Assembly (NCBI GenBank): GCA_018696395.1
Contig: JABHQR010000006.1
Span: forward strand, 1-64,000
Direction of reading: 5' to 3'
Origin: an archaeon
Lineage (GTDB): Archaea; Nanobdellota; Nanobdellia; Woesearchaeales; GW2011-AR9
Length of the DNA: 64,000 bases
Shown here: positions 15,743 to 38,695 of the stretch, piece after piece
Numbering within the stretch: the first letter of the stretch is position 1
How the letters are laid out: each line of letters starts with the position of its first letter
Position numbers and translations under genes: made by a program
Notes under the pieces: model-generated
What the model was told of the DNA's origin: nothing
Database searches by the model: none
What the model saw: only the letters and a program-made list of their open reading frames with translations

Positions 15743-17011
15743 TTAATTTAACAAATTGAAAGAAATGATATCTGATTCTTGGTTATTGCTTGAAACAGTA
15801 ACAGCAAAATAATTCTCAGAGGATAGATCCAATTCATTTGAATCTAAAACATAAACACCATAAGAAATACCTGGTAACGCCCCATCACAAGTATAAATTT
15901 CACCTGCTTCAAAATCAGAAGGGCAATCAGATTCAATTTCATAATTATAAAAATCTTTAACGTCATAATAATTAGTACTGTATAAATAATAATTTTCAAA
16001 CTCATCAACAGACCCAGAATAAGTTCCAGCATTATTATTGTCGGTTAAATAAATATTGTACTTTTCAGCAAATTCATTAAGTTCAAAGTAAATTAAAAAA
16101 TAATCAGTACTGGAATCAGAATCAGAATAAAGTTCAGTTACAGAAAATGGTTTACTTGGACTAAAATCTAACGCAAATTTGTAATTGATAGGGATTAGTT
16201 CAGCAGATAAATTATAAAGAGAATAATCGTTTGGACTTTCTACACAAAATTTTACTGACCGATCAAATTCTAAATAATTATCATTATTACAATCAGTGAA
16301 ATGCCAATAGGCAAGCATATTGTTATCAATGCAAGATTCTAAATTTTGATCTGATAAACACAATGACAAAAGGTTATTAACATCATTATTTAATTGATAA
16401 AAATCAGACATTAAATTGTAAGTTATATCTAAAGTAAAAGAAGAAGTTATTGAATATTCAATATCACCATTTCCTTCTACAAAACGAAATAAGTTATCAC
16501 TTTTACCTTTAAATTCTGGGCCATCTAACAAATATTCATAATCTACTTCAGGAATTGCTATTTTTACATGTTTTTCAACTTGATCACCTAAATAATTTTC
16601 ATATTTATAATCACGATAATGAAATTTAGGCACATTTTGTAAATAGTTAGTAAAACTAGTTTTTAAGTTATTATCAAATTCATTCAAAAAAATATTTTCA
16701 TAATCTGGAAAACAGTTTTGTCCATTAAAATACCAATAATTATAATTATCAATATTACCACAATTAGAGTTAGTATCTAAAAAACCATTTTCAGACAGTT
16801 CAATTACTGTTTGCCAAGAAGTAGATCTTACCACTTGATCAAAATAAAGTTGTGCTTCTTTAACTTCTTCATGAAAATATAATAAATTAAATTCATAATC
16901 TCCTTTCTCCAAATTCATGGACATGTCAATAGTTACATAAGCCACAACACCTAAACAACCTATAATAGCAAAGATAATCCAATGAAATATTGCAGCTTTT
17001 TTATTTATCAT
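15743..17011 (-). CDS. Pilin-like secreted protein, 422 residues
   Basis: The N terminus MINKKAAIFHW fits a class III (prepilin-type) signal: basic residues, then KA|AI, then one hydrophobic helix (about 8-28). The rest is an aromatic, Asp/Asn-rich ectodomain with nine or more cysteines; the last 90 residues look like an Ig-like beta-sandwich (CPSDFEAGEIYTCDG...). No family is recognised. It is the last gene of the minus-strand surface block, 11 nt after the preceding gene, so it is probably made with the others and placed on the outer face of the membrane. Confidence 0.7.
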   Translation of the reverse strand: MINKKAAIFHWIIFAIIGCLGVVAYVTIDMSMNLEKGDYEFNLLYFHEEVKEAQLYFDQVVRSTSWQTVIELSENGFLDTNSNCGNIDNYNYWYFNGQNCFPDYENIFLNEFDNNLKTSFTNYLQNVPKFHYRDYKYENYLGDQVEKHVKIAIPEVDYEYLLDGPEFKGKSDNLFRFVEGNGDIEYSITSSFTLDITYNLMSDFYQLNNDVNNLLSLCLSDQNLESCIDNNMLAYWHFTDCNNDNYLEFDRSVKFCVESPNDYSLYNLSAELIPINYKFALDFSPSKPFSVTELYSDSDSSTDYFLIYFELNEFAEKYNIYLTDNNNAGTYSGSVDEFENYYLYSTNYYDVKDFYNYEIESDCPSDFEAGEIYTCDGALPGISYGVYVLDSNELDLSSENYFAVTVSSNNQESDIISFNLLN

Positions 17012-17022
17012 TTTATTTTTAT

Positions 17023-17550
17023 TTAATAAGTTTCATAAACTAAGTTTATTTCTTTATTATTCATATCGTTAAAAAACATCTGGCCATAATGAACAGGTTC
17101 AACATAAGTTGAATAACCAGAGTAAGGATCTAAATCACTGTAATACACTTCTAAATTTGCATTAAGCCAACATTTGCCAATTAAACCATTAGATTCTTCA
17201 AAACAGATATAAATTGACCAGCCCTTAGAACCATGAATATTATCTAAAACATTAGCAGTAGGAGAATAAAATAAATCTGGTTTATCTTCAATTTCTATAT
17301 TCTGAGAGTAAGTTATAAATTCATAATAAGACATAGTTAATTCTTCTTTTTCAATTGGCATTGACATTAAACTTAACACATTATCATCACCCAACCAATT
17401 ATCAACTTGATCAGCCATACTTTCTTGTTCCTGTTCAAGCTGACCAGAAAAAATTGATCCAGCAAATAAGAAAATGAAAAACATAGCTACAATAGTAAAA
17501 ATGTAATCAAACCAATCATCCATCATTGCTTTACGACCAAGTTTCATCAT
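17023..17550 (-). CDS. Pilin-like membrane protein, 175 residues
   Basis: The leader GRKAMMDDW precedes a hydrophobic helix at about residues 15-33. K-A-M-M matches the class III cleavage pattern. The remaining 140 residues are polar with two Cys and many Tyr. The start codon overlaps the end of the upstream gene by 20 nt, a sign of translational coupling. No known domain is seen. Confidence 0.65.
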   Translation of the reverse strand: MMKLGRKAMMDDWFDYIFTIVAMFFIFLFAGSIFSGQLEQEQESMADQVDNWLGDDNVLSLMSMPIEKEELTMSYYEFITYSQNIEIEDKPDLFYSPTANVLDNIHGSKGWSIYICFEESNGLIGKCWLNANLEVYYSDLDPYSGYSTYVEPVHYGQMFFNDMNNKEINLVYETY

Positions 17551-18043: not shown

Positions 18044-18091
18044 CTTTTTAGTTTTATTTTTTATTATGTTTAAGTTTAATAATTAATTATT

Positions 18092-18550
18092 TTAACAACC
18101 TTCCAAAGTGATACTTTTTCCTTGTTTAGTTAAACAAATTCTTTCTTTTTGTTCTGCAATACCAATCGCAGTATATCCAGTTGGTAAAAATAAAGTTCTT
18201 TTAGAGTCAAGCAAACTTACTTCTCCACCAATACTAACTTTTAGTTCAGCATCATTAGTACCAGTACCATCAACATTAGAACTGGTAAGTACAATTTCAT
18301 ATGCAGAAATATTTTTAGAAGAGTTTTGTAAAGGATATTTTAATATTATATCTCCGGAAACAGAAGCCATGTAATTAATCATCATATTCAAATCTTCGGC
18401 AATCAAATTTTTATGAACTGATTCTGAATCATTAAGTTTTTTAGAAACTAACATTAGCATTGAAACTATTAGTACCACTGCCATTAATTCAAAGACCATC
18501 ATTAAAATGCTAGAAGCCTTTTTTGATTTGAATAATTTCATATTTATCAT
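18092..18550 (-). CDS. Pilin-like membrane protein, 152 residues
   Basis: The leader FKSKKASSILMMV precedes a hydrophobic helix at about 14-34. The ectodomain of some 115 residues includes a predicted beta-strand region and a final Cys pair (ERICLTKQGKSITLEGC). KKAS departs slightly from the KKAQ seen in its neighbours. ATG codons at residues 1 and 4 are both possible starts. Function unknown. Confidence 0.65.
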   Translation of the reverse strand: MINMKLFKSKKASSILMMVFELMAVVLIVSMLMLVSKKLNDSESVHKNLIAEDLNMMINYMASVSGDIILKYPLQNSSKNISAYEIVLTSSNVDGTGTNDAELKVSIGGEVSLLDSKRTLFLPTGYTAIGIAEQKERICLTKQGKSITLEGC

Positions 18551-18579
18551 AATATTTTTAGTATTTTTATTTATGGTAA

Positions 18580-19212
18580 TTAATAACTTAGCAAAATCTT
18601 ATATTCAAATTTCTTAACGCTAAATCCAGTTCTTCGATCAATTTCAAAATAAGAGTCAAACCCTTCCTCTTTAGCCATCCCCCTTTCTATCATAAAACCA
18701 TTATTACAAGTATAAGAACTTACTTCAAAAGGAGATCCGACATTACACGAATTAATTTGGATAGTATAATTAATACTTTCACATTTTGTCATATAATCTG
18801 TCCTTATTCTTAATTCTTGATTAATAATCCCATTATCTTCAATTTCAGGATTGCTTAGTAAGCATACACAATTTAAAGTTTCATCACAAATAGAAGGTTT
18901 TTCAATTACAATTTGATAACTGTCATCATTAATACCACCTGCTCCTTTAACATCAACAATAACTTCAGTAGCACCAGCATTAAAGTAAACAAAAGTAGTT
19001 TGATCATCTAATATTAATATAACAGAATCCATGTAACCTACTTTTTCTTGATTAACTTCTTCAATTGTTGAAAATACATCGTCAAAATTTTCTTTAGCTT
19101 GAGCACTTACCCTCATCATTTCAGAAGCAAACATGCAAGTAGGAATGAAAATAATTAAAGCTAAAATAGTTACCATCAAGAAAGGCACCATTATGTTAGC
19201 TTTTTTTCCCAT
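18580..19212 (-). CDS. Pilin-like membrane protein, 210 residues
   Basis: A very short leader, MGKKANIMVPF, is followed by a helix at about 8-30. The ectodomain has eight or so Cys (including CDETLNCVCLL and SCNVGSPFEVSSYTC), which suggests disulfide bonds outside the cell. KKAN is a variant of the KKAQ motif. It lies 29 nt before the next gene of the block. No family is recognised. Confidence 0.65.
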   Translation of the reverse strand: MGKKANIMVPFLMVTILALIIFIPTCMFASEMMRVSAQAKENFDDVFSTIEEVNQEKVGYMDSVILILDDQTTFVYFNAGATEVIVDVKGAGGINDDSYQIVIEKPSICDETLNCVCLLSNPEIEDNGIINQELRIRTDYMTKCESINYTIQINSCNVGSPFEVSSYTCNNGFMIERGMAKEEGFDSYFEIDRRTGFSVKKFEYKILLSY

Positions 19213-19245
19213 TTTTATTTTAATAATTTAAAATTAAATTTAACC

Positions 19246-19569
19246 TTATTTACATTCTTCTTTTTCTGCATCAGTACATTCTTTATTCTCATCAATATTC
19301 TCTTCAGTCACACTAGAAGGGCACCCAGGATAATCTTCATTATCAGTAGTCCCATACTTACAAGGACATTTATCGTAAAAGTCTGCAACATCATCACTAT
19401 CACAATCACCAAAAGAATCTAATGCGTCTCCTACCGTTTCCATACCTTTGCCACCTTTATCTGTAACAAACCATAATACTAATGCCATTACTACAATTGC
19501 TATGATTGCTGCAATAACAATCCACCAAGTTTGAGTTTGAGCTTTTTTAAAATTAAACATTTTGTTCAC
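19246..19569 (-). CDS. Small KKAQ pilin-like protein with Asp/Cys-rich tail, 107 residues
   Basis: FKKAQTQTWWIVIAAIIAI shows the KKAQ leader and helix (about 15-36). After a Gly-rich linker, the segment DCDSDDVADFYDKCPCKYG resembles a thrombospondin type 3/Ca-binding repeat, with paired Cys and dense Asp. It closely resembles the 88-residue protein at 21687-21953 in layout, so the two may be paralogous small subunits. Confidence 0.7.
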   Translation of the reverse strand: MNKMFNFKKAQTQTWWIVIAAIIAIVVMALVLWFVTDKGGKGMETVGDALDSFGDCDSDDVADFYDKCPCKYGTTDNEDYPGCPSSVTEENIDENKECTDAEKEECK

Positions 19570-19610
19570 CTCTTTGATAATGATTGTTTTATTATTTTGA
19601 TCATATTATT

Positions 19611-21307: not shown

Positions 21308-21348
21308 TTTAATTTATTCCTCTTTTTAATGAAAATATTTTCAATATT

Positions 21349-21489: not shown

Positions 21490-21512
21490 TTTAAAATACC
21501 TACATCATCAAA

Positions 21513-21638: not shown

Positions 21639-21686
21639 TTTCAAAATTTTGTTTCATAATTAAAATTAAATTGTAAAAAATAATAA

Positions 21687-21953
21687 TTATTCATTTATTG
21701 TTGGCGTTCCTAAACAACATACATAATCTCCACCGTAAGTATCACAGGTGAATACAGATTGTTTGGACGTACCATCTGGACAAACACTATTAGAGTAACA
21801 TACACCACCTTTAGCTTCACAATCCATGATGCCTTTTTCTAGAACATTAGTCTTTCCAGTGAACATTAACAATAATACGATCATTACAATTAAAGCAATA
21901 ACTGCAGCAATAATTATCCAGAAAGTGCTACCTTGAGCTTTTTTATTTTGCAT
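21687..21953 (-). CDS. Small KKAQ pilin-like protein with Cys-rich tail, 88 residues
   Basis: QNKKAQGSTFWIIIAAVIAL shows the KKAQ leader and helix (about 10-29). The 45-residue tail carries six Cys (CEAKGGVCYSNSVC, CDTYGGDYVCC), probably forming a compact disulfide domain outside the cell. GAGG lies upstream of the start. The layout matches the 107-residue protein at 19246-19569. Confidence 0.7.
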   Translation of the reverse strand: MQNKKAQGSTFWIIIAAVIALIVMIVLLLMFTGKTNVLEKGIMDCEAKGGVCYSNSVCPDGTSKQSVFTCDTYGGDYVCCLGTPTINE

Positions 21954-22028: not shown

Positions 22029-22382
22029 TTATTCCCAATCACAACCAGTAGATATGCAATTACTTGAATCAGTACCTTCGCCCCTGCATCTACTTATTTC
22101 AGATTTTAAAGTTGACCTAGTTTCATCAGTTACTGAACTATCTTCACTTTGCATTCCTGAAAGGAAATTATTCTCTGCGCTTTGAGTAGGATGACATGAA
22201 CCATAAGTTATTTTTAATGCAGTAAGTTCAGTAGTACCTTCTTTACTGATATCTTCATTGAATGAAGCCATTCTTCCAGAAAAGATTATTGCCAAAATCA
22301 CTAATACTATTAAAGCGAGTGCCGCAACAATAATCACAGTTAACGAAAGACCTTGTCCTTTTTTATCTTTAAAAAAATTCAT
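22029..22382 (-). CDS. KKGQ pilin-like protein, 117 residues, first gene of the distal unit
   Basis: KDKKGQGLSLTVIIVAALAL gives the KKGQ leader and helix (about 11-31). The polar ectodomain has four Cys (GSCHPTQ, SRCRGEG, NCIS, GCDWE). AGAGGTGA lies 6 nt before the ATG, one of the clearest ribosome binding sites in the block. The 228-bp gap upstream has its own TATA box, so this gene probably begins a transcript that runs to 15743. Confidence 0.7.
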   Translation of the reverse strand: MNFFKDKKGQGLSLTVIIVAALALIVLVILAIIFSGRMASFNEDISKEGTTELTALKITYGSCHPTQSAENNFLSGMQSEDSSVTDETRSTLKSEISRCRGEGTDSSNCISTGCDWE

Positions 22383-22410
22383 CTTAATTCACCTCTTGTT
22401 TATATCAAAT

Positions 22411-22426
22411 ATAAGCCCATGCTTAT
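22411..22426. promoter_or_regulatory. Inverted repeat at the promoter of the distal pilin-like unit
   Basis: ATAAGC and GCTTAT are separated by four bases and lie 29-44 nt upstream of ATG 22382. The right arm overlaps the TATA-like sequence TTTTATAAGC read on the minus strand (22421-22430). The repeat could be an operator that blocks TBP binding, or a weak terminator for the upstream unit. Confidence 0.45.
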
Positions 22427-22610
22427 AAAATATAATTATTATTACTTAATAAAAGAAATGTGTATTTAAAGATTACTAAATTTTCAAGGGAAAAAAGAGA
22501 TATTAATGCTATTTAAAACACCTCTTTTTAATATTATTAAATATATTGAAAAAACTGATTCAAATTGATTTTTAATTATTTTGTTAAAATTAAGAGAATT
22601 AATAAAATAT

Positions 22611-23180
22611 TCAATCACATAAATACAAAATACTTTCAATTAAACCTTGACCTTTGAGATATATAGCAAACTGTCCAGAAGTATCTCGTTCACTAGAATA
22701 AGTACATCCTCCATTGTCCACATAAATTAATTGATCTTCGTTAGTTCCAGATACAAAATTTGATTGAAGTTGATAATTTTTGTTCCATTGTCCTAATGTT
22801 TCGTTAAGAACATAACCAATTTGTTCTTGTAAAAAATCACATGAATGTAATCCGTCACACATATAATCAGAATAGATGTAACTTCCTTCCCTGCTGTTAT
22901 AATGTTCGGCACAATCTTCAAGCAGATCCAATTCCACACTTAACACTTTTGTAGAACCAGAACTTGAATCTTCACAAGTTAGTTCAGTTTTCATTATTGC
23001 ACTCATAGTACTAAAAGACAAACCTTTACGAGTAAATGTTTTTTTATCTTGATCCTGATTTAAAGCAAACTGGGCCATGAAAAGCATCCCAACTGTAATA
23101 AGAATTACAATAACAACTAAACCAATCATTTCTGCTTGAGCTTTTTTATTTGCACTTTTATTTCTTTGATATAATTCCAT
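22611..23180 (-). CDS. KKAQ pilin-like protein, 189 residues
   Basis: SANKKAQAEMIGLVVIVILI gives the motif and helix (about 17-38). K-A-Q-A fits the prepilin cleavage rule well. The ectodomain of about 150 residues has six or so Cys and many Tyr/Gln. The start codon directly follows the stop of the gene upstream with no gap. No family is recognised beyond the pilin-like N terminus. Confidence 0.7.
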   Translation of the reverse strand: MELYQRNKSANKKAQAEMIGLVVIVILITVGMLFMAQFALNQDQDKKTFTRKGLSFSTMSAIMKTELTCEDSSSGSTKVLSVELDLLEDCAEHYNSREGSYIYSDYMCDGLHSCDFLQEQIGYVLNETLGQWNKNYQLQSNFVSGTNEDQLIYVDNGGCTYSSERDTSGQFAIYLKGQGLIESILYLCD

Positions 23181-23744
23181 TTAAGAATATACCTCTACTG
23201 TGATATAACCAACACCATACATTCCTTTAATTTCTATACCCCTGGTAGTAGAACCAAAATTCCTGCCATGGGTTTCATCTTTCAAAGTTACAACAAAAAA
23301 AGTAGATTCTTTAAGTTGCCAACTAGAAACTTCTTCACCTTCTGCGTTGGTAGAAACTTTTTCTTTATCATATAAAACATAACTAATATTCCCAGGATAA
23401 ACTTCAGTTATAGATATTTTTGAAAAACCAAATATGTTAAAATAATAATCATTAATGTAATCTGATATTGTTTGATTAAAAGCTCTTAATTTTGACATAT
23501 CAATACAATTATCTTCTGATTCGGCACTACCCCGACTACACTGAAATTCTGGCATGAACAAAGCGGTTAATGTGATATCCATAGCATCATTAGCAAGAAG
23601 TTCTTCTTCTTTTTGTTCAAGACTAATTTGTTGAAATTTAAAATAAAAAATTAACCCAAATAATACTAATACAAAGAATATAAACAATACCCCTATGGTT
23701 TCCATCAGTTGCATCTGAGCTTTCTTATTTTTAGTGAATAACAT
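23181..23744 (-). CDS. KKAQ pilin-like protein, 187 residues
   Basis: TKNKKAQMQLMETIGVLFIF gives the motif (K-A-Q-M) and the helix at about 15-35, with a Glu near position 5 of the mature protein, as in true type IV pilins. The ectodomain has two Cys (FQCSRG, DNCID) and ends in beta strands. It abuts the next gene with no gap. Confidence 0.7.
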   Translation of the reverse strand: MLFTKNKKAQMQLMETIGVLFIFFVLVLFGLIFYFKFQQISLEQKEEELLANDAMDITLTALFMPEFQCSRGSAESEDNCIDMSKLRAFNQTISDYINDYYFNIFGFSKISITEVYPGNISYVLYDKEKVSTNAEGEEVSSWQLKESTFFVVTLKDETHGRNFGSTTRGIEIKGMYGVGYITVEVYS

Positions 23745-23785: not shown

Positions 23786-24916
23786 TTAATAAATTGTAAC
23801 ACATAATTCTAAATCTAATAAGTCGTTCAATTGTTCTATTTCTGAAGCATAATTAATCAATGAAATACATTGACTATACCCTGAACTAGTACATACTTGG
23901 GCAGCTAAATGAATTCCATTAAATGGGTCATTAGTTTGTAATGCGGTTAAACATTCCGAATCGTAAGTTTCACTTCCTTCAGAATAATATTCCAACAATT
24001 CTTGATATTTTCCAGAATAAACTTCTGAAATTATTTCTAATCTTTCAAACATTTTAATCATATTACATTTGTAAGTTTCATCATTATGAGTAAATATTGC
24101 GGCATATTTAGTTACGTCACGTTCATCAGGAGAATTACTTATGATTGGAATTACTTCGTTGTTAAGTTTTTCAAAATGATTTCCTTCTTTTTGATAATAA
24201 TTAATTCCCCCAGTTGACATAAAACTTATTGCAGAAACCTTACTATCATCTAAAGATTCTAAAGATTCAGGAATTGCACCATTATCTGTTACTTGTGAAC
24301 CAGAAAGTCCAGAATCAAAATCAACAATTCTAACTTGATAATTATCACCTGGATCAATATCATCAAAACTATCAATAAATTCAAAATTTAAATCTATAGT
24401 GGAATTTAATAATTCTTCTTTCAAAGCTTGTTCTGAACTATCACCAATAACAAAATATTTAGTGTTTGAAGAAGTTATCATTAAAACGTCCATTACTTTG
24501 AAAGGAAATTTGTATGGTAAACTCCACGTAATCATTTCTGCAGTTTGAATTTTTGCAGGAGCAAAAATAGGTTCAATAATAGTTTCTTCAGTAGCACTAG
24601 TATCTTCAACACCATAACCTGAAAAAATATCTTTAAATCCACCATAATCATCAAGTTCACAAGTAAATGTAAAAGTATAATCAGTTAAACTACTGGTATC
24701 AACAAAATTTTTTGTTTGTTCAGAAGCTGTAGCTGCAGTGATGATAGATTCTAAGATCCTAGTCACATCATAACTCAAATTATCTTCAGAGATAGATTTT
24801 TGTTTAACGGCGATACCAATAAAAAAAAGAAGAATTACTGCTCCAGCTATTAAAACATATATCCAGTTAAAGGTTAAAGTATATTGACCTTTTTTATTAT
24901 TTTTTAAATATGACAT
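23786..24916 (-). CDS. KKGQ pilin-like protein, 376 residues
   Basis: KNNKKGQYTLTFNWIYVLIA gives the motif and helix (about 16-36). The large ectodomain of about 335 residues is acidic, with Cys in CELDD, KCNM, SECL, QVCTSSGYSQC and LELCVTIY. No known domain is seen. A 117-bp AT-rich gap upstream could hold a promoter. It lies between the 190-residue and the 187-residue pilin-like genes. Confidence 0.7.
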   Translation of the reverse strand: MSYLKNNKKGQYTLTFNWIYVLIAGAVILLFFIGIAVKQKSISEDNLSYDVTRILESIITAATASEQTKNFVDTSSLTDYTFTFTCELDDYGGFKDIFSGYGVEDTSATEETIIEPIFAPAKIQTAEMITWSLPYKFPFKVMDVLMITSSNTKYFVIGDSSEQALKEELLNSTIDLNFEFIDSFDDIDPGDNYQVRIVDFDSGLSGSQVTDNGAIPESLESLDDSKVSAISFMSTGGINYYQKEGNHFEKLNNEVIPIISNSPDERDVTKYAAIFTHNDETYKCNMIKMFERLEIISEVYSGKYQELLEYYSEGSETYDSECLTALQTNDPFNGIHLAAQVCTSSGYSQCISLINYASEIEQLNDLLDLELCVTIY

Positions 24917-25033: not shown

Positions 25034-25606
25034 TTATTCATAAACTGCTTCTGACAATTTTGTTCTTGAACCTAACCCTTCTAATCTTAATGAAAATGAA
25101 CCACTATTAATGTTCATACAAATAAAACCTTCATCAATACTAACCTTGTAAACTTTCATGGCCACAGGAGCACTAGGTTTTAGGAAAACATTTTCATCAG
25201 CACTATCATAACCATCCCCTGAATAAGATGCAGTTTCCCAAACATCACAAGCGATAGCATCGTAATTGCACAGTTCTTCATTATATTCTGAATCTAGGTC
25301 TACAAAACAGATTTGAGAATATTCCCTAGGTAATTGATAATCTTCTTGCCTTACTGACCCATATTCAGAATAAATTCTTTTAATACTATTTTCAATCTCA
25401 GATTTAAATTGATAAAATTCTACAGCTTCTCCTTTTTCTAAAAAATCACCTATTGCACTATACCCAAAAATCATAATGAAAGCAAAAGTAATAGCAGTTA
25501 CCATAAAAACAAATACTTGTTGGATCCCCATTGCTTTTTTGTTTAATTTGTTTGATTTTTTGAAATTAATTTTTTTAGAAATCAAGTTAAGTTTTAACAA
25601 ACCCAT
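25034..25606 (-). CDS. Pilin-like protein with KKAM leader, 190 residues
   Basis: A long basic leader ending in NKLNKKAMGIQQV precedes the helix at about 33-52, so the cleaved part would be about 26 residues. The ectodomain has four Cys (QICFVD, LCNYDAIACD, FICMNI). The ATG is only 2 nt after the stop of the 2141-residue protein gene, so the two are translationally coupled and probably act together. Confidence 0.7.
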   Translation of the reverse strand: MGLLKLNLISKKINFKKSNKLNKKAMGIQQVFVFMVTAITFAFIMIFGYSAIGDFLEKGEAVEFYQFKSEIENSIKRIYSEYGSVRQEDYQLPREYSQICFVDLDSEYNEELCNYDAIACDVWETASYSGDGYDSADENVFLKPSAPVAMKVYKVSIDEGFICMNINSGSFSLRLEGLGSRTKLSEAVYE

Positions 25607-28600: not shown

Positions 28601-31600
28601 CCACTAATTGATTCAGTTTTATGTTCTTTATTATCTTCATCTTGATTAATAAAATCAGTCACATAATCATAACTTAAAGTTCCTTCATCATATAAGTATA
28701 ATTCACAACTTGCAGATACTGCAGTTTCTATTTGAAATTCAATACTAGTTTCGTCTACAGGTTGTTCATAAGCAGGATATAATAAAGTTATATCTTGTTC
28801 TTGATCAAATACTAAAGTTTCTGTTTCAGTGTTAACATTGGCATGGTCATCCATACAGTTAATAGTAATATCATAAATAACGCCAGTAAGACCAGTATAT
28901 TCTTTTTCTTTATCTTCTTCTCTCCCCAGGCTTGAAGTGGAATTACTTCCTTCAGGTAAAATTGGACTTAAAGTAAAATCACAATCCATCATTTCATTCA
29001 TATCGCTCAAGTAAACTGTTAAATCAGTACTATCTGCTTCAATAGTGTATTCAGTTTCAATTTGAAATTCTGGCAATTTATTGTCAATAAAAACATAAGT
29101 TTCTTTAACAGATTCTTGATTATAATATTTATCTTTAGAATAAAATCTAAGTAAGTAAGTTTCACCAGAGACAATAGTTGAAGACAAGTATGAACTGTTA
29201 ATTAAATCAACTTCAACTGATTCTTCATTAACTACACCATCATAAGATACTGATTCAAAATTGTTACATGAACTAGAATCTGAACTTGACAAACAATAAT
29301 ATAATTCACCTAATGAACTGGATTGATCAATACTATTAAAGGTTACATTTGGATAAGTTACAGAGATTATTGAAAAACTTTCACTTTCAACATTTGTTTC
29401 AGGCGCGTCATTATCAACTTCACAAGAACTGTATTCACCTGCACTAAAAACAGAACAATCTTCAACACCATCAGCATCACCATCTTTAATACAATATCCT
29501 GTTGACAAATTACTATCTGCAGCAACCCAAGAACATCTTCCCCAAGAACATCTATCTTCAGACAACATAATTTCACCATAACTATTTTCAATGTTTTGTT
29601 CGGAGATACATTCTAATTCAGAATTATATTCATAACAATTTGCATCGTCACTCGAAATTTCACCACATTCATTACATACAGTTAAGTCATCTTCAGAGAA
29701 ACATCTTCCTAAATTTGTACAGATGTAAGGAGTACAATAACTATTTTCAAACAGATTAGCATCAGGACCACATGAATAACATTGATCATCTTCTTCATAT
29801 TCATCTTCAATACAATAACCTTGACCAGTTTCAAAAGTTGTTTCATAAAGTACAGAATAATCTAACATCTCTTCATCGGATGAACTAGACCCAGAAGCAC
29901 TTACGCCTTCAGCAGTAGCATCAATCCAATTACAACCGATACCTAAACAATTATTAGATGTACAAGCATCTTCACTAACATAATCAAAACAATTATCAAA
30001 CTCATCGCAAGAATAACATTTATCTGATACTGTTTCAGTAAAGTCATAATAACAATAATTTTCATAACCGCTTGTTGATGAGTATTCACCATAACAGGTG
30101 TCACGATCATAATAAAGTCCGAAAGGATCTGCCCCTTGTTGTAAAACATTACAATTACCAGCATTTTTACATACTGCATAACCTGAACTTGCTTCAGTAC
30201 AATACCAATCACTATCAGAATCATCTAAACTACTACAATCTGAACTAGTAACTAAATTATTTTCATTATCACAAGTATAAATATATTTTTTCTCGTTACT
30301 TTCAGTACTAGAATCATCACTCATACAAAAATATTGGCCACTTTCAAACCCTTCACAATAATCACTACCTAAAGTAATAGTTGCAGAAGCACCTTCACTA
30401 GATAATCTTGATTGTGGATCACCAGTACTATTGTCCACTGGACCATCAATGTAAACTGCCCAGATTTCGTAAGTATAAGTGTTACCCCATTCAACATCTT
30501 CATCAGAATAAGATATTGCAATTGGAGATAAAGTTAAAATTAAAACATCGTCCCTATAAAGATAATACCCACTAACTTCTGAACAAGGTTTATCCCATTC
30601 TAAATCAACTATCAATTCTCCGCTGACAATATTTGCAATGAGTTCTTCAACAGGTTTTTGATCATTTTCTTGACCGTAACTACATTCACCGATATATTTG
30701 GTCATCAATAAATCAATATCTTCAGTTCCGCCATCACTGATTGTAATTTCATAATCTTCAGAACCATAATCTTGATATGTTGCGCTAACATTATAAGTAC
30801 CAGATCCTAAGTTAATTTCAAAGTCACCATCAGGATAATCTGAACTTCCTTTGTAAACACCATCAACATAAATTTTTGCACCATAAACTAAATCATCAGC
30901 TAAACTGTCACCATTTTCGTCTACCCAAGTATTACCAGTAATTCCTTGAAAATCAATTTCACTTAAAGTTAAGTCTTGTTCATTGTCTCCTTCAGCTAAA
31001 ATAAGTTCAATTTCAGTTGTAGAGTAAGAATATTTACTTAAAGTAATACTGTAATCGCCAGTATAGATGTTAGTAACATTATAAAAACCATCACTTCCAG
31101 AAGTCACACAAGATATTGAAGTTCCATCATAGCAAATAGTTACAGAACTTACTGTGTTACCTTCAGAATCATAGATGTAACCAAACAAGTTAGAATATTC
31201 ATCTGCAATGGATAAAGTAATGTTAAATTCTTCTACTTCACTTGATGATAAAGATACCGAACTAGAATCAGAATAATATCCTTCTGCAGAAGTTTTTACA
31301 ACATAAGATCCTGGGTTAACATTTGAAAAGGAATAATAACCATCTGAACTAGTAGTATAAGAATTTGAACTAGTTAATTCAATATCAGCACCACTTATTG
31401 GACTTCCAGTTTCGTTAAGTACATAACCAGAAACACTAGCATAACTTAATTCCACACCACATATATCTGTTTGACAGGAATCAGGATCAATATTATCAGT
31501 GATATAATATAAATCTTCTAAGTCATAACCTCTTTGTTCAGCATTTTCCAAACATTCATATTTTGTACTAACATAATTACAAAAATCAGCTACTTGACAA

Positions 31601-32034
31601 CAACCTTCATTACACCATAGACCATATTCATCATCAGATACAGCTTCACCGCCAAGATCTTCACAAACAGTTAAAGCGTGGTAATCACAATCAACAGAAC
31701 AAACAACTTCTTCACAAACTTCATCAAATTCACTTGATGAACATAATTTCCCAGAATAAAAATAATCATCAAAATTGTCACAATTATCATAAGATTCACA
31801 ATCTGATTGAGCTTCACTTTTCAAGGTATTATCTTGACATACTAAATCTTCACTTCCGCTAGGAAAGATATAACATCCTTCCGTATCAGCATAAGAAAAA
31901 TTGTTAGGTGCAATCAAGGCGATTAAGATTAAAATAAGTAAAATAAAGGAGAGTTTAGTAAAGTTATTTAATTTAGGAGGATTACTGATAGGTTTAACAT
32001 CTACATCTGATAATCCTCTTTTTCTTAATTTCAT
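25609..32034 (-). CDS. Giant Cys-rich multidomain surface protein, 2141 residues
   Basis: After an N-terminal helix (about 29-50) comes a Cys-rich module (about 54-195) that is shared with the 396-residue neighbour. Next are three carboxypeptidase-regulatory/CnaB-like beta domains (about 198-450; e.g. VSGYVLNETGSPISGADI) and an FN3-like domain (about 465-560). Long Cys-rich and Ig-like repeats follow, then a polyserine linker (about 1628-1650) and an Asp-rich thrombospondin type 3/EF-hand-like stretch (DTDNDGIIDGYDDNDGDGY, about 1860). A transmembrane helix (about 1932-1960) precedes a 178-residue basic, Ser-rich cytosolic tail. It is probably an adhesin or a scaffold for the pilin-like proteins. 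The N terminus has KRGLSDV but no adjacent helix. Confidence 0.8.
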   Translation of the reverse strand: MKLRKRGLSDVDVKPISNPPKLNNFTKLSFILLILILIALIAPNNFSYADTEGCYIFPSGSEDLVCQDNTLKSEAQSDCESYDNCDNFDDYFYSGKLCSSSEFDEVCEEVVCSVDCDYHALTVCEDLGGEAVSDDEYGLWCNEGCCQVADFCNYVSTKYECLENAEQRGYDLEDLYYITDNIDPDSCQTDICGVELSYASVSGYVLNETGSPISGADIELTSSNSYTTSSDGYYSFSNVNPGSYVVKTSAEGYYSDSSSVSLSSSEVEEFNITLSIADEYSNLFGYIYDSEGNTVSSVTICYDGTSISCVTSGSDGFYNVTNIYTGDYSITLSKYSYSTTEIELILAEGDNEQDLTLSEIDFQGITGNTWVDENGDSLADDLVYGAKIYVDGVYKGSSDYPDGDFEINLGSGTYNVSATYQDYGSEDYEITISDGGTEDIDLLMTKYIGECSYGQENDQKPVEELIANIVSGELIVDLEWDKPCSEVSGYYLYRDDVLILTLSPIAISYSDEDVEWGNTYTYEIWAVYIDGPVDNSTGDPQSRLSSEGASATITLGSDYCEGFESGQYFCMSDDSSTESNEKKYIYTCDNENNLVTSSDCSSLDDSDSDWYCTEASSGYAVCKNAGNCNVLQQGADPFGLYYDRDTCYGEYSSTSGYENYCYYDFTETVSDKCYSCDEFDNCFDYVSEDACTSNNCLGIGCNWIDATAEGVSASGSSSSDEEMLDYSVLYETTFETGQGYCIEDEYEEDDQCYSCGPDANLFENSYCTPYICTNLGRCFSEDDLTVCNECGEISSDDANCYEYNSELECISEQNIENSYGEIMLSEDRCSWGRCSWVAADSNLSTGYCIKDGDADGVEDCSVFSAGEYSSCEVDNDAPETNVESESFSIISVTYPNVTFNSIDQSSSLGELYYCLSSSDSSSCNNFESVSYDGVVNEESVEVDLINSSYLSSTIVSGETYLLRFYSKDKYYNQESVKETYVFIDNKLPEFQIETEYTIEADSTDLTVYLSDMNEMMDCDFTLSPILPEGSNSTSSLGREEDKEKEYTGLTGVIYDITINCMDDHANVNTETETLVFDQEQDITLLYPAYEQPVDETSIEFQIETAVSASCELYLYDEGTLSYDYVTDFINQDEDNKEHKTESISGFYEGEYAGTVKVVCVESLTDDYLEDYFYFNVDFTAPNTQIILTEGERTEEPTSYGWETYFVEEVSIDFECDSDGFECQYTYYCLGEGCEYSTSTNYTEYSETVTTAETIQICYYSTDESGSYAYPECGDIIIEGFGIKQVNPDGFYYEDELWGVSNTATFDWEIMSKLETEQCKFDFNSEFDYDSVPSLRTFDDSTTDDYYIIENFPADVLSDFDTDGSSKTIYVKCEDQLGDISPSQKIYLEYDPIAPSISSAYADPSDVMEGINTNLYVSTDDKTACKYSDNSDGAGSVEFDTMEYSFPGYEDDSSSTDNIFYTDHETTFSFSFDGAQKDYTLNVQCMNGAGDLSEVSEITFSVDYSASGYIVSVSPGGYISYTNVSLGVETNKNAYCYYDSTDFETTGGTSHIQGMGTLDEGEYHYLITCLVGENNRDGEIDFNIDLTAPTVSSIDDGIYTCGLSEVKLLVYTDESNISSYYYELYQGEPESSSSSSSSSSFSSSSSSTTSNSSDTILLSNGTLPANNETTISATFTENETYYVQVLAVDAAGNWGEYTLSDGFIAVGSNYSSCAEDEEAPSITLETNETCTATYAELICEDENGCSEFKYGISSSSSTCSADGDYYGNQLTFSESGWICYYVEDVNGNNKTGLKKVTFSDDDSDEVGDTCDTCSDTSDGKVVDSDGCAYGQVPDEEEGNDKDEDGLPDYWEKLFDQTSCEFNYLSEDTDNDGIIDGYDDNDGDGYTNYEEYKNGYDPCVADERGDTDNDMAESSNTSTTTNLDTSITEPENNGLKLIGLVLLILGILLTGGGIGYLVYFYLNTLQGKKILGNGMGNRFGRTNSPAGQNQMPRGSYYQQVGQTRSSSRSNNSSGQTMFSGLKGLGDKLKELSKMHLQRSKSSERKKLFSGFSGSSSNVSSHFKNVFENEGADSHEKVKNIVNTYQKNREEIRGNMKKGEESLFNKLDEISKKSKTKSLQDIITKKDANNIFNKLKKISGKRGK

Positions 32035-32154: not shown

Positions 32155-33345
32155 TTATTTTTCAACCATATTTTTTAACTTTTCTAAATAAGATTTTTCT
32201 TTTTTAAGTTTAGATTTATCTTTTAGTTCTTTATCAAGAACATTATTTAAATGAGAATGTTTAGATTGTTTATGTTTCAAATGTTGTTTTTTACTTTTTC
32301 TGTGGTGTTTAGTCACTAAATGTTTCAATTTATCAAGGTAATTATTTTTTATTAAAATTTTATTTCCTGGAAAATTTTCTTCCAAAAAAGCTTCTTTTTT
32401 TCGTATGGAATGTTTGGCATGAACATTTTTAATTTTTTTAAAAAGATGTTTTGGATGAGCATATTTTAAAGTGTTTGGAAGATACAGTTTAGTTAAAGAT
32501 TTTGAGTTAAAATTATCTTTAGATAAAGGTATTTCTGGAGTGTACTCTCGATTAAAGATATGTTTAGAATAATGTTTCCAATGATTTTTTAATAATAGCA
32601 TAAATAAGCACACCATTAAAAAAGCTAACAATACAATAAGTAACCCAAACCTAAATAATAATTTTTTATTTTCTGGAGATAAAAAATTTGTTAAAAAAGT
32701 TGAAGAGTTATTATTTGAAATGTTTAATTCATTTGTTTTTTCCGCCCCAGAAGATATGTCTAAATTATCATAAATATTTTCAACATTAGATTTTTCTAGA
32801 TCAAAATCTTCCCTTCCTAAGGTAAAAATTTCTGTATCAAAACTATCTGCACAACTGGAACTACAAGCAGATTCTGAAAATCCGAGATCCCAATTTAACA
32901 TACTAGTTTCATACGATTCTGCAAGTAACATACATTCAAATTTAGTTTCAAGATATTGACAAACATTACCTTCATTAGAATTTAATCTACAACAACCAGA
33001 ACCACACCAATTATAAGTATCTTCTTCAGGGATTTCACCATAAGGGCATTGGCCATAAAATTCGATATCACAATTACTTTGACAATAAATAGCATTACAT
33101 TGTTCAAAATTGTCACAACCCACACCAAAAAAAAAATCTGAATCTAACTCACAACCTCCTAACACATCACATTCATCTTCTACTTGTTGCAAAGTTATTT
33201 CTTGACAATAATCATCACTTTCTAAATTTAAAAAACAACCAGTAGACGCTAATAAAATTGTTGACAATGATAGTAAGAAGATAAATGATATTAATAAAAG
33301 TACAATTAGTTTTAAGATATTATTTTCTGGATTAAAATTTAACAT
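32155..33345 (-). CDS. Membrane protein with Cys-rich ectodomain and His/Lys-rich cytosolic tail, 396 residues
   Basis: An N-terminal helix (about 10-33) is followed by a Cys-rich ectodomain (about 37-170). Its Cys pattern (CQSNCD ... WCGSGCCRLN ... CQYLETKFECMLLAE) parallels the first module of the 2141-residue protein (CSVDCD ... WCNEGCCQVA ... CNYVSTKYECLENAE). A second helix lies at about 229-252. The remaining 144 residues form a basic tail with many His and Lys (KHHRKSKKQHLKHKQSKHSH), predicted to be inside the cell. Function unknown; perhaps a signalling or anchoring partner. Confidence 0.75.
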   Translation of the reverse strand: MLNFNPENNILKLIVLLLISFIFLLSLSTILLASTGCFLNLESDDYCQEITLQQVEDECDVLGGCELDSDFFFGVGCDNFEQCNAIYCQSNCDIEFYGQCPYGEIPEEDTYNWCGSGCCRLNSNEGNVCQYLETKFECMLLAESYETSMLNWDLGFSESACSSSCADSFDTEIFTLGREDFDLEKSNVENIYDNLDISSGAEKTNELNISNNNSSTFLTNFLSPENKKLLFRFGLLIVLLAFLMVCLFMLLLKNHWKHYSKHIFNREYTPEIPLSKDNFNSKSLTKLYLPNTLKYAHPKHLFKKIKNVHAKHSIRKKEAFLEENFPGNKILIKNNYLDKLKHLVTKHHRKSKKQHLKHKQSKHSHLNNVLDKELKDKSKLKKEKSYLEKLKNMVEK

Positions 33346-33370
33346 TGAGATGATAGGATTATTTCAAGAC

Positions 33371-33379
33371 TTATAAAGT
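33371..33379 (-). promoter_or_regulatory. TATA box of the 396-residue protein gene
   Basis: On the minus strand ACTTTATAAG is centred about 30 nt before ATG 33345, giving a nearly leaderless transcript. With its own promoter, this gene need not depend on the lipoprotein gene upstream. Confidence 0.5.
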
Positions 33380-33445
33380 TTGTTTGTCATTTAGTTTGTA
33401 AATAAAATCACAGGTGCAATTTAAAAGATTAAATTAAACAATTGT

Positions 33446-36400
33446 TTATTCTTGAGCGTACCTTAACCTACCAACTAAATTTGGCCACCAGAAATCAGTG
33501 TTAGTTGCAGTAATTACTTCATACACTCCCTCATCGTTTAAACTACAGTTAACTAAATAGTTTGGTTCTGCAGGCCATTGTTCAACGATAACATATTCTT
33601 CATTAATATTATTAACATAATCACATACTGGAACATTAAATCCATCGTATTCTGCAATTAAAGTAGTAGCATTAACATTCTTTTCTTCAATTGCTCTAAC
33701 AACATAATTTCCATTGTCCATGCTCATCATGTAAAGTTTGTTAAAGTTAGTAGCTTCGTCTAAGAAATCTTCATTATCTTGTAAAGTTGAACTACTGAAC
33801 AAACTACCGAACCAGTCAAAGATTTCATCAACTAAATTTGATTCAATACTAATCCCATCTTTAGCATAAATTAAAGAATTAATTTCTGGTGCATACCACA
33901 ACTCTTCACTACATTCTTGGAAATCACTACTATTATCACCACTTGCACAAAATTCTTCTTTGTCTGAACTAGAAATACCTAGTGGTATTAAGAAAGAATT
34001 GTCTGCCGAAGTGTTCCTATTCATACTAGTTGCAAATGCAGTTGCGAAATCATTACCAGATTCATATTTTAAAACACAGACATTGTTAATGCAAGTATTT
34101 TCTTCAGTATCAACTAATCTTCGACCAGTTTCACTATTTTCTAAAGCAGAGAAACAAATAGAAGTAGTATCTGAACTACTGGATGAAGTAGTAGTATTAG
34201 TTACAGAATCACCTAAACTAGATTCAGTTTCAACTTCACCCGAACTTTCACCCATAATATAATTTATATAATTGTAACCAGAAACAGCATAATCTAAATA
34301 ATTTGTTTCTAAATCAGTACAGTACATCACATAATCTTGACTATCTGCATAATTCAATAATTTAGTTGCTAAATATTTTGTTCTACTACTCCACTCACCA
34401 TCTTCACAGTAATGATCTAAAATGTATTCACTGGAATTAACACAAGTAGGATAATTTCCATCATAAAAATCGTTAGGCGTAGCACCAGAATCTGCACCTT
34501 CAGACAAACTGCTGGTTACAAAACATTGATTATCATTGCTACAAAAACCATATTCATCAAAGTTCCAATCATATTTTGGATCCATATGTGTCCATTGACC
34601 ATCAATACAACGATAATCAACTTCCCCAGACTGTTCAGTCATGTAAGTGTAAGGTGCCATGTTATTCACACACACATACCCGTTCCAACACATATCTTCA
34701 GGACAACACGCTGCACCTTTCCTTAATTGAAATTCATTATCATAATTATAATCTTGTGCACCCATATCATCAACTAACTGAATCATAGGTCCATGAAATG
34801 AACATTCGCCAGGAACTTCAATAACAGCATAAGTATAACTTCCTGAATTGAAACTTAACGAAGAACTGGTTGTATAAACTGTTTCAGCATCGTTAGTATC
34901 ATAAAGGTAAAAATTAACTGAACATGACGAATTTTGACTAAACTGATAATCCATTTCTGAGTATAATGCAATTTTTTCTGACCACAAAATATTTCCTGAT
35001 TCTATTGTAAAAATATTATCATTAACATGATAATCTTCATCTTCAGATAATTGATTATTGGAATCTCTCAATTTCCAAGCAACGACATCGTCACCATTTT
35101 GATTACTAAAATCTGAATTTGAAACAAAATTTCTTCCAGGCACAACTGAAGTAGAATAATTTCTATCAGTAGCAGCACAATCATCTGCAGAATTGCACGA
35201 TGCTAATTCAAATTCCATATCTTCTTCATATTCAGCAATTTCTTCATAACCAGTTTCATTAATCCCATTATTACTCCAAGTACTTACCAAATAATTATTA
35301 TCTTGATATGCACAATAATAAGAACCTTGAATGTCACAATAACTTAAATCTTCACCTTCATAATCTGTGAAAATGTTAGTATTTGTAATGTAATCTGCTG
35401 CATTACATCCCCAGAAACTTTGGTTATAATGTAATACTTGTTGAGACAATTTTTTTACAACTAAGTTAGCATCTTCTGTGTACTCTTGAGCTATTGAAGT
35501 AATCAATATCTCATCTTCATCATTATCACCAAACCGATAATATAATTCGTACAAGCCGGGATGTAAGTTAGTTACTTTGTAAGGTGGATTACCTGGCAAA
35601 GCATAAACACATTCATCTTGTAAGCAAGGATAATTGAAAGTGGAGTCAGTAGTTGTTTCGTAAGCAGTGCTTTCGAGGATGTTAGTTTCCGCGATAAGTT
35701 GGATTGTAAATTTTTGAAGTAATTCTGAATCATCAATAGTAATAGTAACATCATCACCAAGATAATTTTGTTCCTTTGCATCAAATAGATATAAACTTAC
35801 AGTTTCATTTTCAGTCCAGTTGAGAACTATTTCAATGTCTGAATAACTAGAAGCACTATTCCAAGTATAAATGTCATCAAGCAAACCATAATAAGTTGCA
35901 ATAACTTTAGGAGATTCATTATAATTGATATTAACTGGTCCTGAAGTAATAGGAACAGAATATATACCACCAATACCCAAACTAGAGGTTAAACTAGGGT
36001 TATTGACTTGAGAAATACTTGTTAAATCATAAGAGTTATAATTATAATCTGTAAGATCCAGCCATGAGAATACAAGAGCAACACCATACTCAAACTCTTG
36101 ATCAGGATAATCCATAGTAAAATCTTGTACTTCGTATTCAACTTTGTACTCAACATTCATTACAGTTTGATCATTCTCAATAACTTTTGAATTCCAACAA
36201 CCTAACCCAGAATCATCAGCAGACTTACCAGCATAATATTCATTTTCATCATCACCACAACAAGATGCAGTTTCATCATCAATCTCTAATTCACCATAAG
36301 AACCTAACCAAGCATTAGCCCCAAAATGATTTTGACAAATTTTTTCACCAATCACAGGATTATGTTCATCAGATTGATCAAAATCTTCAATCCAAGAATT

Positions 36401-38695
36401 GTATCCATGTTCAGTATCTTTAGTACTATAACCTGAACAGTAATAATTGATATCATTCTCAGTCTTAGTTAAGTGTAAATTTTTAACAGTAAATTCATTA
36501 CCTTCTGATCCATCTGCAGTGAAATCAAGAATACTTACATCTAACCAATCGCCAACAGGTACTTTAACATGTATTGGATCAGAACCACTTAAATCAGGAG
36601 AAGTTATTGCATAACCTAATACATTTTCATCAAAGTATACAACATCTTCAGAATAACTATCCTGTCCGAACCCATTAATTTTAAGATGAACATCAGCAGG
36701 ATAAACTAAATCTTCTGGATTTGTGAATTCAACAAAAAAGTCTAAGTAATCATAATTTGTAAAATCAACAGAATAATCTAATTCACGATATTGATCATAA
36801 TAATTACTTCCACCACCATAATCACCTTCTAAGTTTATGTTCGTCCCACCAGACATCAAATTGAAAAACCCATCACCAGGATTCCTAAATTTAACAGTAT
36901 CTTGATTTGGAGGAGATAATCCTTCAATTGCTTCTGGGTCAGCACATTCTACCCAAACATTTCTATCTCCTTGATCATAACAAATAAACCTATTTGCAGT
37001 ATAACGATAATCATCAATATTATCTCCAGATATGGTAGTTTCAGGTTTTTCTAAAGTTCCTAAGATATTATCATCATTACAAGTAAACCAATTTTCTGAG
37101 TTAGAAACTATGTCCCAACTTTTTTCACCATTAATTTTTAATGTTAAAATTTCAAATATATTTGTTTGAGGATCTACCCAACACCAATCACTATTTTTAT
37201 CGCAACTTGTAACATCTTCACTATCAGAACTACTTTCACCACTTTTTGAACCAACTACTTTATCATCACCAACTTTCAAACAAGCTTTGTTAGAACCTGA
37301 ATCTGATTCTATTATAACACCTAAATCATCAATTTGATCTGCACCACAACAATAACCCTCATCAGTTTCAATATCATCAGTTTCAGCACCCTCATCAGTT
37401 TCAGAATAATCAATATAATCACATTCTCTTTCTGATTCTAAACAGTTATGTTCACAAGCGTAAGGATTTTCATCACAAGTATCTATTTCATCTGTTGTTA
37501 GTTGACCTACATCATAACCCAAATTAATATAATAATCTGCCAAATTAGTGTATAACTCTGAATCTGGACATTTATTACTTTTACCATCGCCGCAAATCTC
37601 AACTGATAAATCATCCTCTTCAAAACCATCAAAGATACCTAAATCAGTGTATGTAAATCTACTATCTGAATCACAATCCCAATCTTCAGAAAAGTCAGGA
37701 GCATCATCATAATCAGAATCTAAATCTGAGTTCATACTTAAATCAGAATCAATTTTTATCCATTCATTACCATCACAGTAAAATGCTTTTAGTTTGATGA
37801 TTGGACTTCCATCTTCATTTTCACCAACATTAACTTCTTGAGTTACAATTAATTCATTTGTTACAGAATCTTCATCATCATCATATAAATCAAATTTTTC
37901 ACCGTTCCCATTATGTCCGCCACTATCAGTTACAGAATCAAAACATTTTAACATTAATGGTAGCGAGTCAGCACCTAATGTTTCAGTAAGTTTACTTAAA
38001 TCCTTAGGATCAAACCCATATTGTTTTGTTGAATCTAATTCGTTTAATTTTATTGAATAAATATCAGTGCAAGGATAAATTGCATGGGCTTGAGATTCAT
38101 AATCAGCACCACCATCATCATGGATATCCCCTCCAAAACCATCACCATCTTCACAATCATCTTCTTCACAATATATATCATCTCCAAAAAAGTGATCAGC
38201 ACAGATTGCACCTGATTCTAAAGAGTCGTGCCATTCCCAAGTATCAGACATACCGGATAAGGCATCTTCCCCCTTGTCCCATACATCATAAAAAATTTCT
38301 GCAAACATTTGATTAATAATTTTATTTGTTTCAAAATCATAAATATAATCATTACTTACTTTTGTAGTAGTTTGTACGGTTACAAAACCATTTGTAATTT
38401 CAAGACCTTCTAAATCTCTAAAACAAACTTCTCCCTCAAAATCATTACTTGATTCCGCAGAAGAGTAGGGTTTTACACAAAGATAAGACTCGTCATCATC
38501 AAGTATGTATGTTTCATCTGCTGTCGAACAATCTTTAAAACCATCAATAACTTCATCACTAGCACACCCACTTAACAATAAGCCAGAGATGAATATGGAG
38601 AATAGTAGTACATATAAGAAAATGCTGTAATTTTTGTTAAACGCACTCTTAAATGCACTTTTAGAACTATTAACATCTATTCCTCTTTTCCCCAT
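33446..38695 (-). CDS. Giant lipobox protein, 1749 residues
   Basis: The N terminus carries a basic region of about 23 residues, a hydrophobic helix (about 24-41) and the lipobox LLSGC with Cys44, followed by Ala-Ser-Asp. This is a textbook lipoprotein signal. The mature part is acidic, Tyr/Asp/Ser-rich and Cys-rich, with no C-terminal membrane helix. Near the C terminus two short repeats share C-x-D-G-x-W-(T/S), and a Ser/Thr-rich linker lies at about 1475-1500. No known catalytic domain is seen. It heads the surface block; lgt, which would lipidate it, is encoded about 670 bp upstream on the other strand. MGKRGIDV at the start echoes RKRGLSDV of the 2141-residue protein. Confidence 0.78.
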   Translation of the reverse strand: MGKRGIDVNSSKSAFKSAFNKNYSIFLYVLLFSIFISGLLLSGCASDEVIDGFKDCSTADETYILDDDESYLCVKPYSSAESSNDFEGEVCFRDLEGLEITNGFVTVQTTTKVSNDYIYDFETNKIINQMFAEIFYDVWDKGEDALSGMSDTWEWHDSLESGAICADHFFGDDIYCEEDDCEDGDGFGGDIHDDGGADYESQAHAIYPCTDIYSIKLNELDSTKQYGFDPKDLSKLTETLGADSLPLMLKCFDSVTDSGGHNGNGEKFDLYDDDEDSVTNELIVTQEVNVGENEDGSPIIKLKAFYCDGNEWIKIDSDLSMNSDLDSDYDDAPDFSEDWDCDSDSRFTYTDLGIFDGFEEDDLSVEICGDGKSNKCPDSELYTNLADYYINLGYDVGQLTTDEIDTCDENPYACEHNCLESERECDYIDYSETDEGAETDDIETDEGYCCGADQIDDLGVIIESDSGSNKACLKVGDDKVVGSKSGESSSDSEDVTSCDKNSDWCWVDPQTNIFEILTLKINGEKSWDIVSNSENWFTCNDDNILGTLEKPETTISGDNIDDYRYTANRFICYDQGDRNVWVECADPEAIEGLSPPNQDTVKFRNPGDGFFNLMSGGTNINLEGDYGGGSNYYDQYRELDYSVDFTNYDYLDFFVEFTNPEDLVYPADVHLKINGFGQDSYSEDVVYFDENVLGYAITSPDLSGSDPIHVKVPVGDWLDVSILDFTADGSEGNEFTVKNLHLTKTENDINYYCSGYSTKDTEHGYNSWIEDFDQSDEHNPVIGEKICQNHFGANAWLGSYGELEIDDETASCCGDDENEYYAGKSADDSGLGCWNSKVIENDQTVMNVEYKVEYEVQDFTMDYPDQEFEYGVALVFSWLDLTDYNYNSYDLTSISQVNNPSLTSSLGIGGIYSVPITSGPVNINYNESPKVIATYYGLLDDIYTWNSASSYSDIEIVLNWTENETVSLYLFDAKEQNYLGDDVTITIDDSELLQKFTIQLIAETNILESTAYETTTDSTFNYPCLQDECVYALPGNPPYKVTNLHPGLYELYYRFGDNDEDEILITSIAQEYTEDANLVVKKLSQQVLHYNQSFWGCNAADYITNTNIFTDYEGEDLSYCDIQGSYYCAYQDNNYLVSTWSNNGINETGYEEIAEYEEDMEFELASCNSADDCAATDRNYSTSVVPGRNFVSNSDFSNQNGDDVVAWKLRDSNNQLSEDEDYHVNDNIFTIESGNILWSEKIALYSEMDYQFSQNSSCSVNFYLYDTNDAETVYTTSSSLSFNSGSYTYAVIEVPGECSFHGPMIQLVDDMGAQDYNYDNEFQLRKGAACCPEDMCWNGYVCVNNMAPYTYMTEQSGEVDYRCIDGQWTHMDPKYDWNFDEYGFCSNDNQCFVTSSLSEGADSGATPNDFYDGNYPTCVNSSEYILDHYCEDGEWSSRTKYLATKLLNYADSQDYVMYCTDLETNYLDYAVSGYNYINYIMGESSGEVETESSLGDSVTNTTTSSSSSDTTSICFSALENSETGRRLVDTEENTCINNVCVLKYESGNDFATAFATSMNRNTSADNSFLIPLGISSSDKEEFCASGDNSSDFQECSEELWYAPEINSLIYAKDGISIESNLVDEIFDWFGSLFSSSTLQDNEDFLDEATNFNKLYMMSMDNGNYVVRAIEEKNVNATTLIAEYDGFNVPVCDYVNNINEEYVIVEQWPAEPNYLVNCSLNDEGVYEVITATNTDFWWPNLVGRLRYAQE

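Follow-up and report, generated by a model that had tools for sequence, protein, structure and literature searches.

Archaeal type IV pili, as defined by Makarova, Koonin and Albers in 2016, combine proteins with class III signals, an ATPase of the VirB11/GspE family, a TadC-type platform protein and an A24 peptidase; in the Pyrobaculum type these are joined by two large proteins and a large number of Cys-rich minor pilins, and some nanoarchaeal ATPases were left without pilins (PMC4858521). Motor loci of DPANN archaea were described by Hamm 2024, among them locus 2, with a CpaF-like ATPase, a TadC-like platform and short, probable coiled-coil proteins, for which no pilins were named (PMC11291902), and pilins are not annotated in nanohaloarchaeal genomes (PMC9563170). 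The passages on DPANN dark-matter islands in Makarova 2019 propose that unknown genes with signal peptides near FliI/TadC encode diverse pilins and present NEQ255 as a secreted protein often adjoining S-layer-like genes (PMC6393860). The subject of this report is a gene cluster at positions 15743-38695 of the first 64,000 nucleotides (the window) of contig JABHQR010000006.1, assembly GCA_018696395.1, from an archaeon of the Woesearchaeales. We consider it fairly probable that the cluster provides the exported components of a Woesearchaeota machine of the type IV filament kind, unusually heteromeric and serving in surface contact.

Class III signal proteins were found in this genome together with an ATPase and a peptidase of the families known from archaeal type IV pili and with a putative TadC-like platform, and two large proteins accompany many Cys-rich small subunits as in the Pyrobaculum type. 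Unlike in the described pili (PMC4858521), the subunits had no match to known pilins, numbered about sixteen, were each single-copy and were not linked to the motor genes. The surroundings of the ATPase resembled DPANN motor locus 2 (PMC11291902) in gene composition, with coiled coils read by eye, and the present cluster is a candidate for the missing subunits of that locus. Compared by description, the passages on dark-matter islands and NEQ255 mention neither an ordered core with an extension nor an unlinked motor (PMC6393860). No description of this cluster was found in the open-access literature, supplementary files aside. The term "undescribed", used in an initial annotation made from the sequence alone, is nearly right: diverse DPANN pilins had been proposed before (PMC6393860), and so had a motor locus of comparable make-up been reported, with no pilins named (PMC11291902).

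The window lies on contig C3 of a genome of 1.38 Mb that is 98.9% complete and belongs to a tiny archaeon of the symbiont type. The initial annotation had proposed about 19 collinear genes, and all 19 open reading frames (ORFs) were present on the minus strand (Table 1). They encode 16 small proteins with an N-terminal membrane helix, ranging from 41 or 43 to 422 amino acids (aa). The other three products are Cys-rich surface proteins, one of 396 aa (17 Cys), one of 2141 aa (80 Cys) and one of 1749 aa (56 Cys). Intergenic distances were -20 to +120 bp with a single exception of 228 bp. A 51-aa ORF at 22484 was dropped from the gene set. Every subunit was single-copy within the locus. A Pfam scan of the cluster proteins gave nothing over the cut-off apart from CarboxypepD_reg-type matches and a borderline SpaA match, all in the 2141-aa protein, and no gene for an ATPase, a platform or an enzyme was found inside the locus by Pfam, in agreement with the initial annotation. 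A single helix, as it had claimed, was seen in most of the small proteins (transmembrane helices, the lipobox and coiled coils were assigned by visual inspection), but is uncertain for the product of 19611-20537, which has a second hydrophobic segment. Subunits are named below by their first coordinate or by their length.

Class III signals were equally borne out. A strict pattern, our own approximation of FlaFind, was present in 12 of the 19 cluster genes and in 1 of the 38 other genes of the window (Fisher p about 8e-7). In other stretches of the same genome 5 of 93 genes carried the pattern, and four of these five look genuinely class III. By eye, a site of the type K-K/R/Q-[AG] before the N-terminal helix was recognised in 15 of the 16 small proteins. 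Subunits 17023, 17531 and 18092, which come on top of the 12 found by the strict scan, have KKA or RKA sites and charged residues inside the helix. In subunit 25034 the strict scan took an upstream KKS; a KKA site lies a few residues further on.

The AlphaFold2 (AF2) model of the 376-aa subunit 23786 (predicted local distance difference test [pLDDT] score 87.2) has a 47-residue N-terminal helix (residues 18-64) and a head rich in beta strands, and its C-terminal part is helical. A pilin-like architecture of a long N-terminal helix and a globular head was thus seen in one of the 16 subunits. The model of the 308-aa subunit was set aside because its pLDDT of 72 was too weak for interpretation. 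Foldseek searches of the PDB with these two subunit models, including the 376-aa head, gave no match below E 0.001. Searches of PDB sequences with two subunit profiles found nothing significant; a weak match to an archaeal flagellin at E 0.32 was ignored, and NCBIfam matches of small subunits were dismissed as noise. The mean column identity of the families was only 13-44%, whereas Cys residues were more than 90% conserved in most small subunits, and 78 of the 80 Cys of the 2141-aa protein were kept in at least 80% of relatives. Such conservation of Cys despite low identity would be expected of disulfide-linked extracellular parts. VKOR is encoded in the same genome.

The initial annotation had named an absence of synteny in relatives as a refutation, and synteny was found. 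Iterated profiles showed the gene order in more than 20 genomes, nearly all of Woesearchaeota and with named contigs of that group among them, when contigs representing one genome twice were counted once; relatives' genomes were compared at the sequence level. A conserved surface-assembly locus in which pilin-like subunits are coupled to giant proteins is supported. Ten relative neighbourhoods had largely identical genes, order and flanking genes, and named relatives carrying the same giant protein were almost all metagenome-assembled genomes of Woesearchaeota or Nanoarchaeota. A search with the 308-aa subunit gave matches in 44 of 60 genomes. The gene set recurs throughout the family of this archaeon. 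The 23786 family occurred in all 16 genomes of the family, in 82 of 100 genomes of a phylum-level sample and in 52 of 112 class-wide. Irregularities were a cross-match between the 19246 and 21687 profiles and a rearranged downstream part in G046 (L105), which belongs to another family of the order.

The 228-bp gap probably separates two transcription units, as judged from gene spacing. Among 22 genomes the distance between 22029 and 22611 was 46-4704 bp with zero overlaps, and the gap houses unrelated genes in G008 and G020; almost every genome has 22611 and 23181, two core genes, overlapping or directly adjoining. The core consists of the subunits 25034, 23786, 23181 and 22611, a protein with the motif KGQVTIF (the QVTIF protein) and the Cys-rich giants, and the other twelve subunits form a downstream extension. 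In G121, G140, G159, G160, G155 and G152, which belong to other orders of the class, the genes found were limited to the upstream core, with homologues of the four subunits and a QVTIF-type protein of roughly 250-270 aa; in G159 no 25034 homologue was detected among the core genes. There the core adjoins a gene for a large surface protein, which matched Pfam S_layer_C over the cut-off in G159 and G155 and below the cut-off in G121. The neighbours in G160 and G152 are S-layer-like by their N-terminus only, because they gave no Pfam match. An ORF beside the core genes of G050 had a near-cut-off match to the archaeal A24 C-terminal domain.

The initial annotation had described the giants as anchored. 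This was correct for the 2141-aa protein, which like the 396-aa protein carries a transmembrane anchor and a basic tail, but no obvious C-terminal anchor was seen in the 1749-aa protein. The N-terminus of the latter reads by eye as a lipobox (LLSGC) here and not in most relatives. Most relatives share a conserved, FFWPQLTGKLRVE-like C-terminus in this family (33446-38695), which might be a signal for attachment or sorting. No S_layer_N or S_layer_C domain was matched in the window giants. Bacterial minor-pilin/PilY1 tip complexes combine several differently sized minor pilins with a large surface protein. The present locus resembles them in this respect; it differs in having many more subunits and no DUF2341/PilY-type domain, as none was found in the giants of the window, in two other giants or in the proteins of the QVTIF family.

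The QVTIF protein of the core is displaced to contig C16 in this genome; its supposed absence was rejected once the orthologue had been located there. Contigs C16, C22 and C24 carry three additional pairs in which a KKGQVTVF protein precedes a large surface protein, and in G050 a QVTIF-type N-terminus is part of a single 2225-aa protein. These findings suggest that surface-protein cassettes may be exchangeable and attached via a class III anchor. One of the three pairs is trailed by a 190-aa class III pilin-like gene.

Pilin machinery elsewhere in the genome, as had been predicted, was found. A GspE/FlaI-type ATPase of 769 aa (PF00437 over the cut-off) was the sole type IV pilus-type ATPase detected. 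Its nearest solved relatives were 2OAP, an archaeal type II secretion ATPase (phmmer 3.9e-31), then CpaF and FlaI. An archaellum or bindosome identity was rejected on the ATPase scores, which were 114.9 for FlaI NF058587 (cut-off 550) and 39 for BasE NF053672 of the bindosome (Bas; cut-off 1000). A PF00482 search of this genome found no platform, and the orthologues in relatives matched PF00482 only weakly. A putative fused TadC-like platform of 727 aa on contig C24 was located via relatives in which the platform adjoins the ATPase (G045, G048 and G039); it has no Pfam match in this genome, and its orthologues are strongly conserved. One A24 prepilin peptidase (PF01478 over the cut-off) is encoded on contig C12. 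In this genome ATPase and platform lie about 10 kb apart (L003:8217-11345 and G000:C24:26083-28251), and a tyrosine-recombinase-like gene adjoins the ATPase. Three small membrane proteins are encoded near the ATPase (L003:13625-15385, minus strand), and a similar trio occurs near the ATPase in G048 (L064).

As no other type IV pilus ATPase was detected, the cluster would use the 769-aa ATPase if it is assembled by such a motor, and for the same reason this ATPase with its divergent platform is probably a dedicated motor. The earlier idea that the locus borrows the cell's pilin machinery was revised accordingly. The ATPase type of roughly 770 aa was present in nearly all of 60 genomes. The full-length platform and the core family were distributed over the same part of the class: of 21 genomes carrying the core family 20 had the full-length platform, as against 10 of 29 lacking the family (Fisher p about 1e-5, uncorrected for phylogeny); the remaining genomes of the two groups had weaker platform matches or none.

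In the filament-like machine that we favour, about fifteen single-copy prepilin-like subunits would be processed by the A24 peptidase from C12; their assembly would then fall to the 769-aa ATPase together with the fused platform of 727 aa from C24. The product may be a heteromeric filament, a short pseudopilus or a tip complex. Both giants (33446-38695 and 25609-32034), the 396-aa protein and the C16 QVTIF protein would be placed at its outer end or around the S-layer exit, where they would make contact with surfaces or partner cells. Several observations weigh against this machine. No subunit resembled any known pilin significantly in sequence or fold (all subunits in Pfam, two each in PDB profile and Foldseek searches), and none stands out as a repeated major pilin. 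The ATPase and platform were linked to the locus in none of the genomes seen, in 10 genomes the full platform was present and no core subunit was detectable, G094 shows the reverse, and the co-occurrence of platform and core, being uncorrected for phylogeny, is confounded by kinship. The motor's real main substrates could be the products of class III pilin-like genes that lie apart from the cluster in this genome (L004:6512-7093 and L143:17453-18025). The former (minus strand) stands alone, close to the gene for the prepilin peptidase; its class III-like product of 193 aa is a possible major pilin.

Alternatively, the cluster might encode a non-filamentous envelope scaffold, with the class III proteins as static single-helix anchors that tie the giants to the membrane and the S-layer, while the motor would serve other pilins. 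The core does adjoin S-layer-like genes in other orders, standalone class III proteins exist, all locus subunits are single-copy, and the anchors and basic tails of the 2141-aa and 396-aa proteins would suit a scaffold. We nevertheless regard it as unlikely, since prepilin sites are retained in nearly all subunits, the N-terminal helix is long and of pilin type, and core and platform have a shared distribution. Minor-pilin-like proteins of many sizes without an obvious major pilin also resemble pseudopilin sets, and 2OAP as the nearest solved ATPase points in the same direction. A type II secretion-like pseudopilus or a DNA-uptake machine, with the giants as exported substrates or receptors, is quite improbable, however, because the 2141-aa protein is membrane-anchored, the giants are linked and conserved parts, and no genes for a retraction ATPase, a DNA receptor or a secreted enzyme were seen in the locus. 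That unrelated small membrane proteins without a common structure are neighbours by chance is hardly credible: although no common Pfam domain was detectable, many genera and, in part, different orders share the gene order, the N-termini are uniform and core genes overlap.

A more far-reaching version of the filament-like machine would be a host-contact organelle of a new kind, namely a complex of fixed composition with about sixteen different pilins, giant disulfide-stapled caps and a dedicated divergent ATPase with a fused platform, which would be ancestral to much of the class and would attach to or breach partner cells. We regard this version as rather doubtful.

Table 1. Genes of the cluster in the window and related pairs elsewhere in the genome
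Feature	Position	Strand	Remarks
Giant Cys-rich secreted protein 1, 1749 aa, 56 Cys, first cluster gene	33446..38695	-	No Pfam match; family in about 20 related loci
Cys-rich surface protein, 396 aa, 17 Cys, one transmembrane helix, then Lys/His-rich tail	32155..33345	-	Variable, replaced or absent in some relatives
Giant Cys-rich surface protein 2, 2141 aa, 80 Cys	25609..32034	-	3 CarboxypepD_reg stretches, C-terminal transmembrane helix, basic cytoplasmic tail
Core pilin-like subunit, 190 aa, 4 Cys	25034..25606	-	KKA-M site; family also in other orders of the class
Core pilin-like subunit, 376 aa, 6 Cys	23786..24916	-	KKG-Q site; AF2 model pLDDT 87
Core pilin-like subunit, 187 aa, 2 Cys	23181..23744	-	KKA-Q site
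Core pilin-like subunit, 189 aa, 6 Cys, ends upstream core unit	22611..23180	-	KKA-Q site; overlaps/abuts preceding gene in nearly all relatives
228-bp gap, probable boundary between two transcription units	22383..22610	-	Gap comparison in 22 genomes
Pilin-like subunit, 117 aa, 4 Cys, candidate major subunit	22029..22382	-	KKG-Q site; 4/4 Cys invariant in family
Pilin-like subunit, 88 aa, 6 Cys	21687..21953	-	KKA-Q site; cross-matches 19246 family
Pilin-like mini-subunit, 41-43 aa	21513..21644	-	Site NKQA
Pilin-like mini-subunit, 46 aa	21349..21489	-	Site KKG-M
Subunit with N-terminal helix, without prepilin site, 259 aa	20528..21307	-	Site absent in essentially all relatives
Pilin-like subunit, 308 aa, C-terminal hydrophobic segment	19611..20537	-	Conserved CFxCY and GGPG motifs; model pLDDT 72
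Pilin-like subunit, 107 aa, 6 Cys	19246..19569	-	KKA-Q site
Pilin-like subunit, 210 aa, 7 Cys	18580..19212	-	KKA-N site
Pilin-like subunit, 152 aa, 2 Cys	18092..18550	-	KKA-S site; Cys 95-100% conserved
Pilin-like subunit, 170 aa, 2 Cys, Glu5-like residue	17531..18043	-	KKA-Q site
Pilin-like subunit, 175 aa, least conserved	17023..17550	-	RKA-M site
Pilin-like subunit, 422 aa, 9 Cys, last cluster gene	15743..17011	-	KKA-A site; 8/9 Cys conserved
QVTIF-type class III protein, then large surface protein	L141:6116-12232		Contig C16
QVTIF-type class III protein, then large surface protein	L143:9428-18025		Contig C22
QVTIF-type class III protein, then large surface protein	L144:4825-8617		Contig C24

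One flank of the cluster is formed by an RNase P p30-like gene (38792-39331), the other by an OB-fold gene and a gene for a YdjM-like membrane protein (13159-14713; both names read from sequence). Between the cluster and the OB-fold gene lies a gene for a 226-aa secreted protein (14886-15566, minus strand), which is probably lineage-specific because it was not seen at that place in the relatives examined.

Cultivated DPANN archaea require direct contact with a host cell (PMC11291902), and how they hold this contact is poorly understood. The locus offers a concrete, conserved candidate set of subunits for the Woesearchaeota motor. It may provide the pilins that have long been missing in these archaea and is, for Woesearchaeota, a candidate answer to the pilin gap with defined, testable genes.

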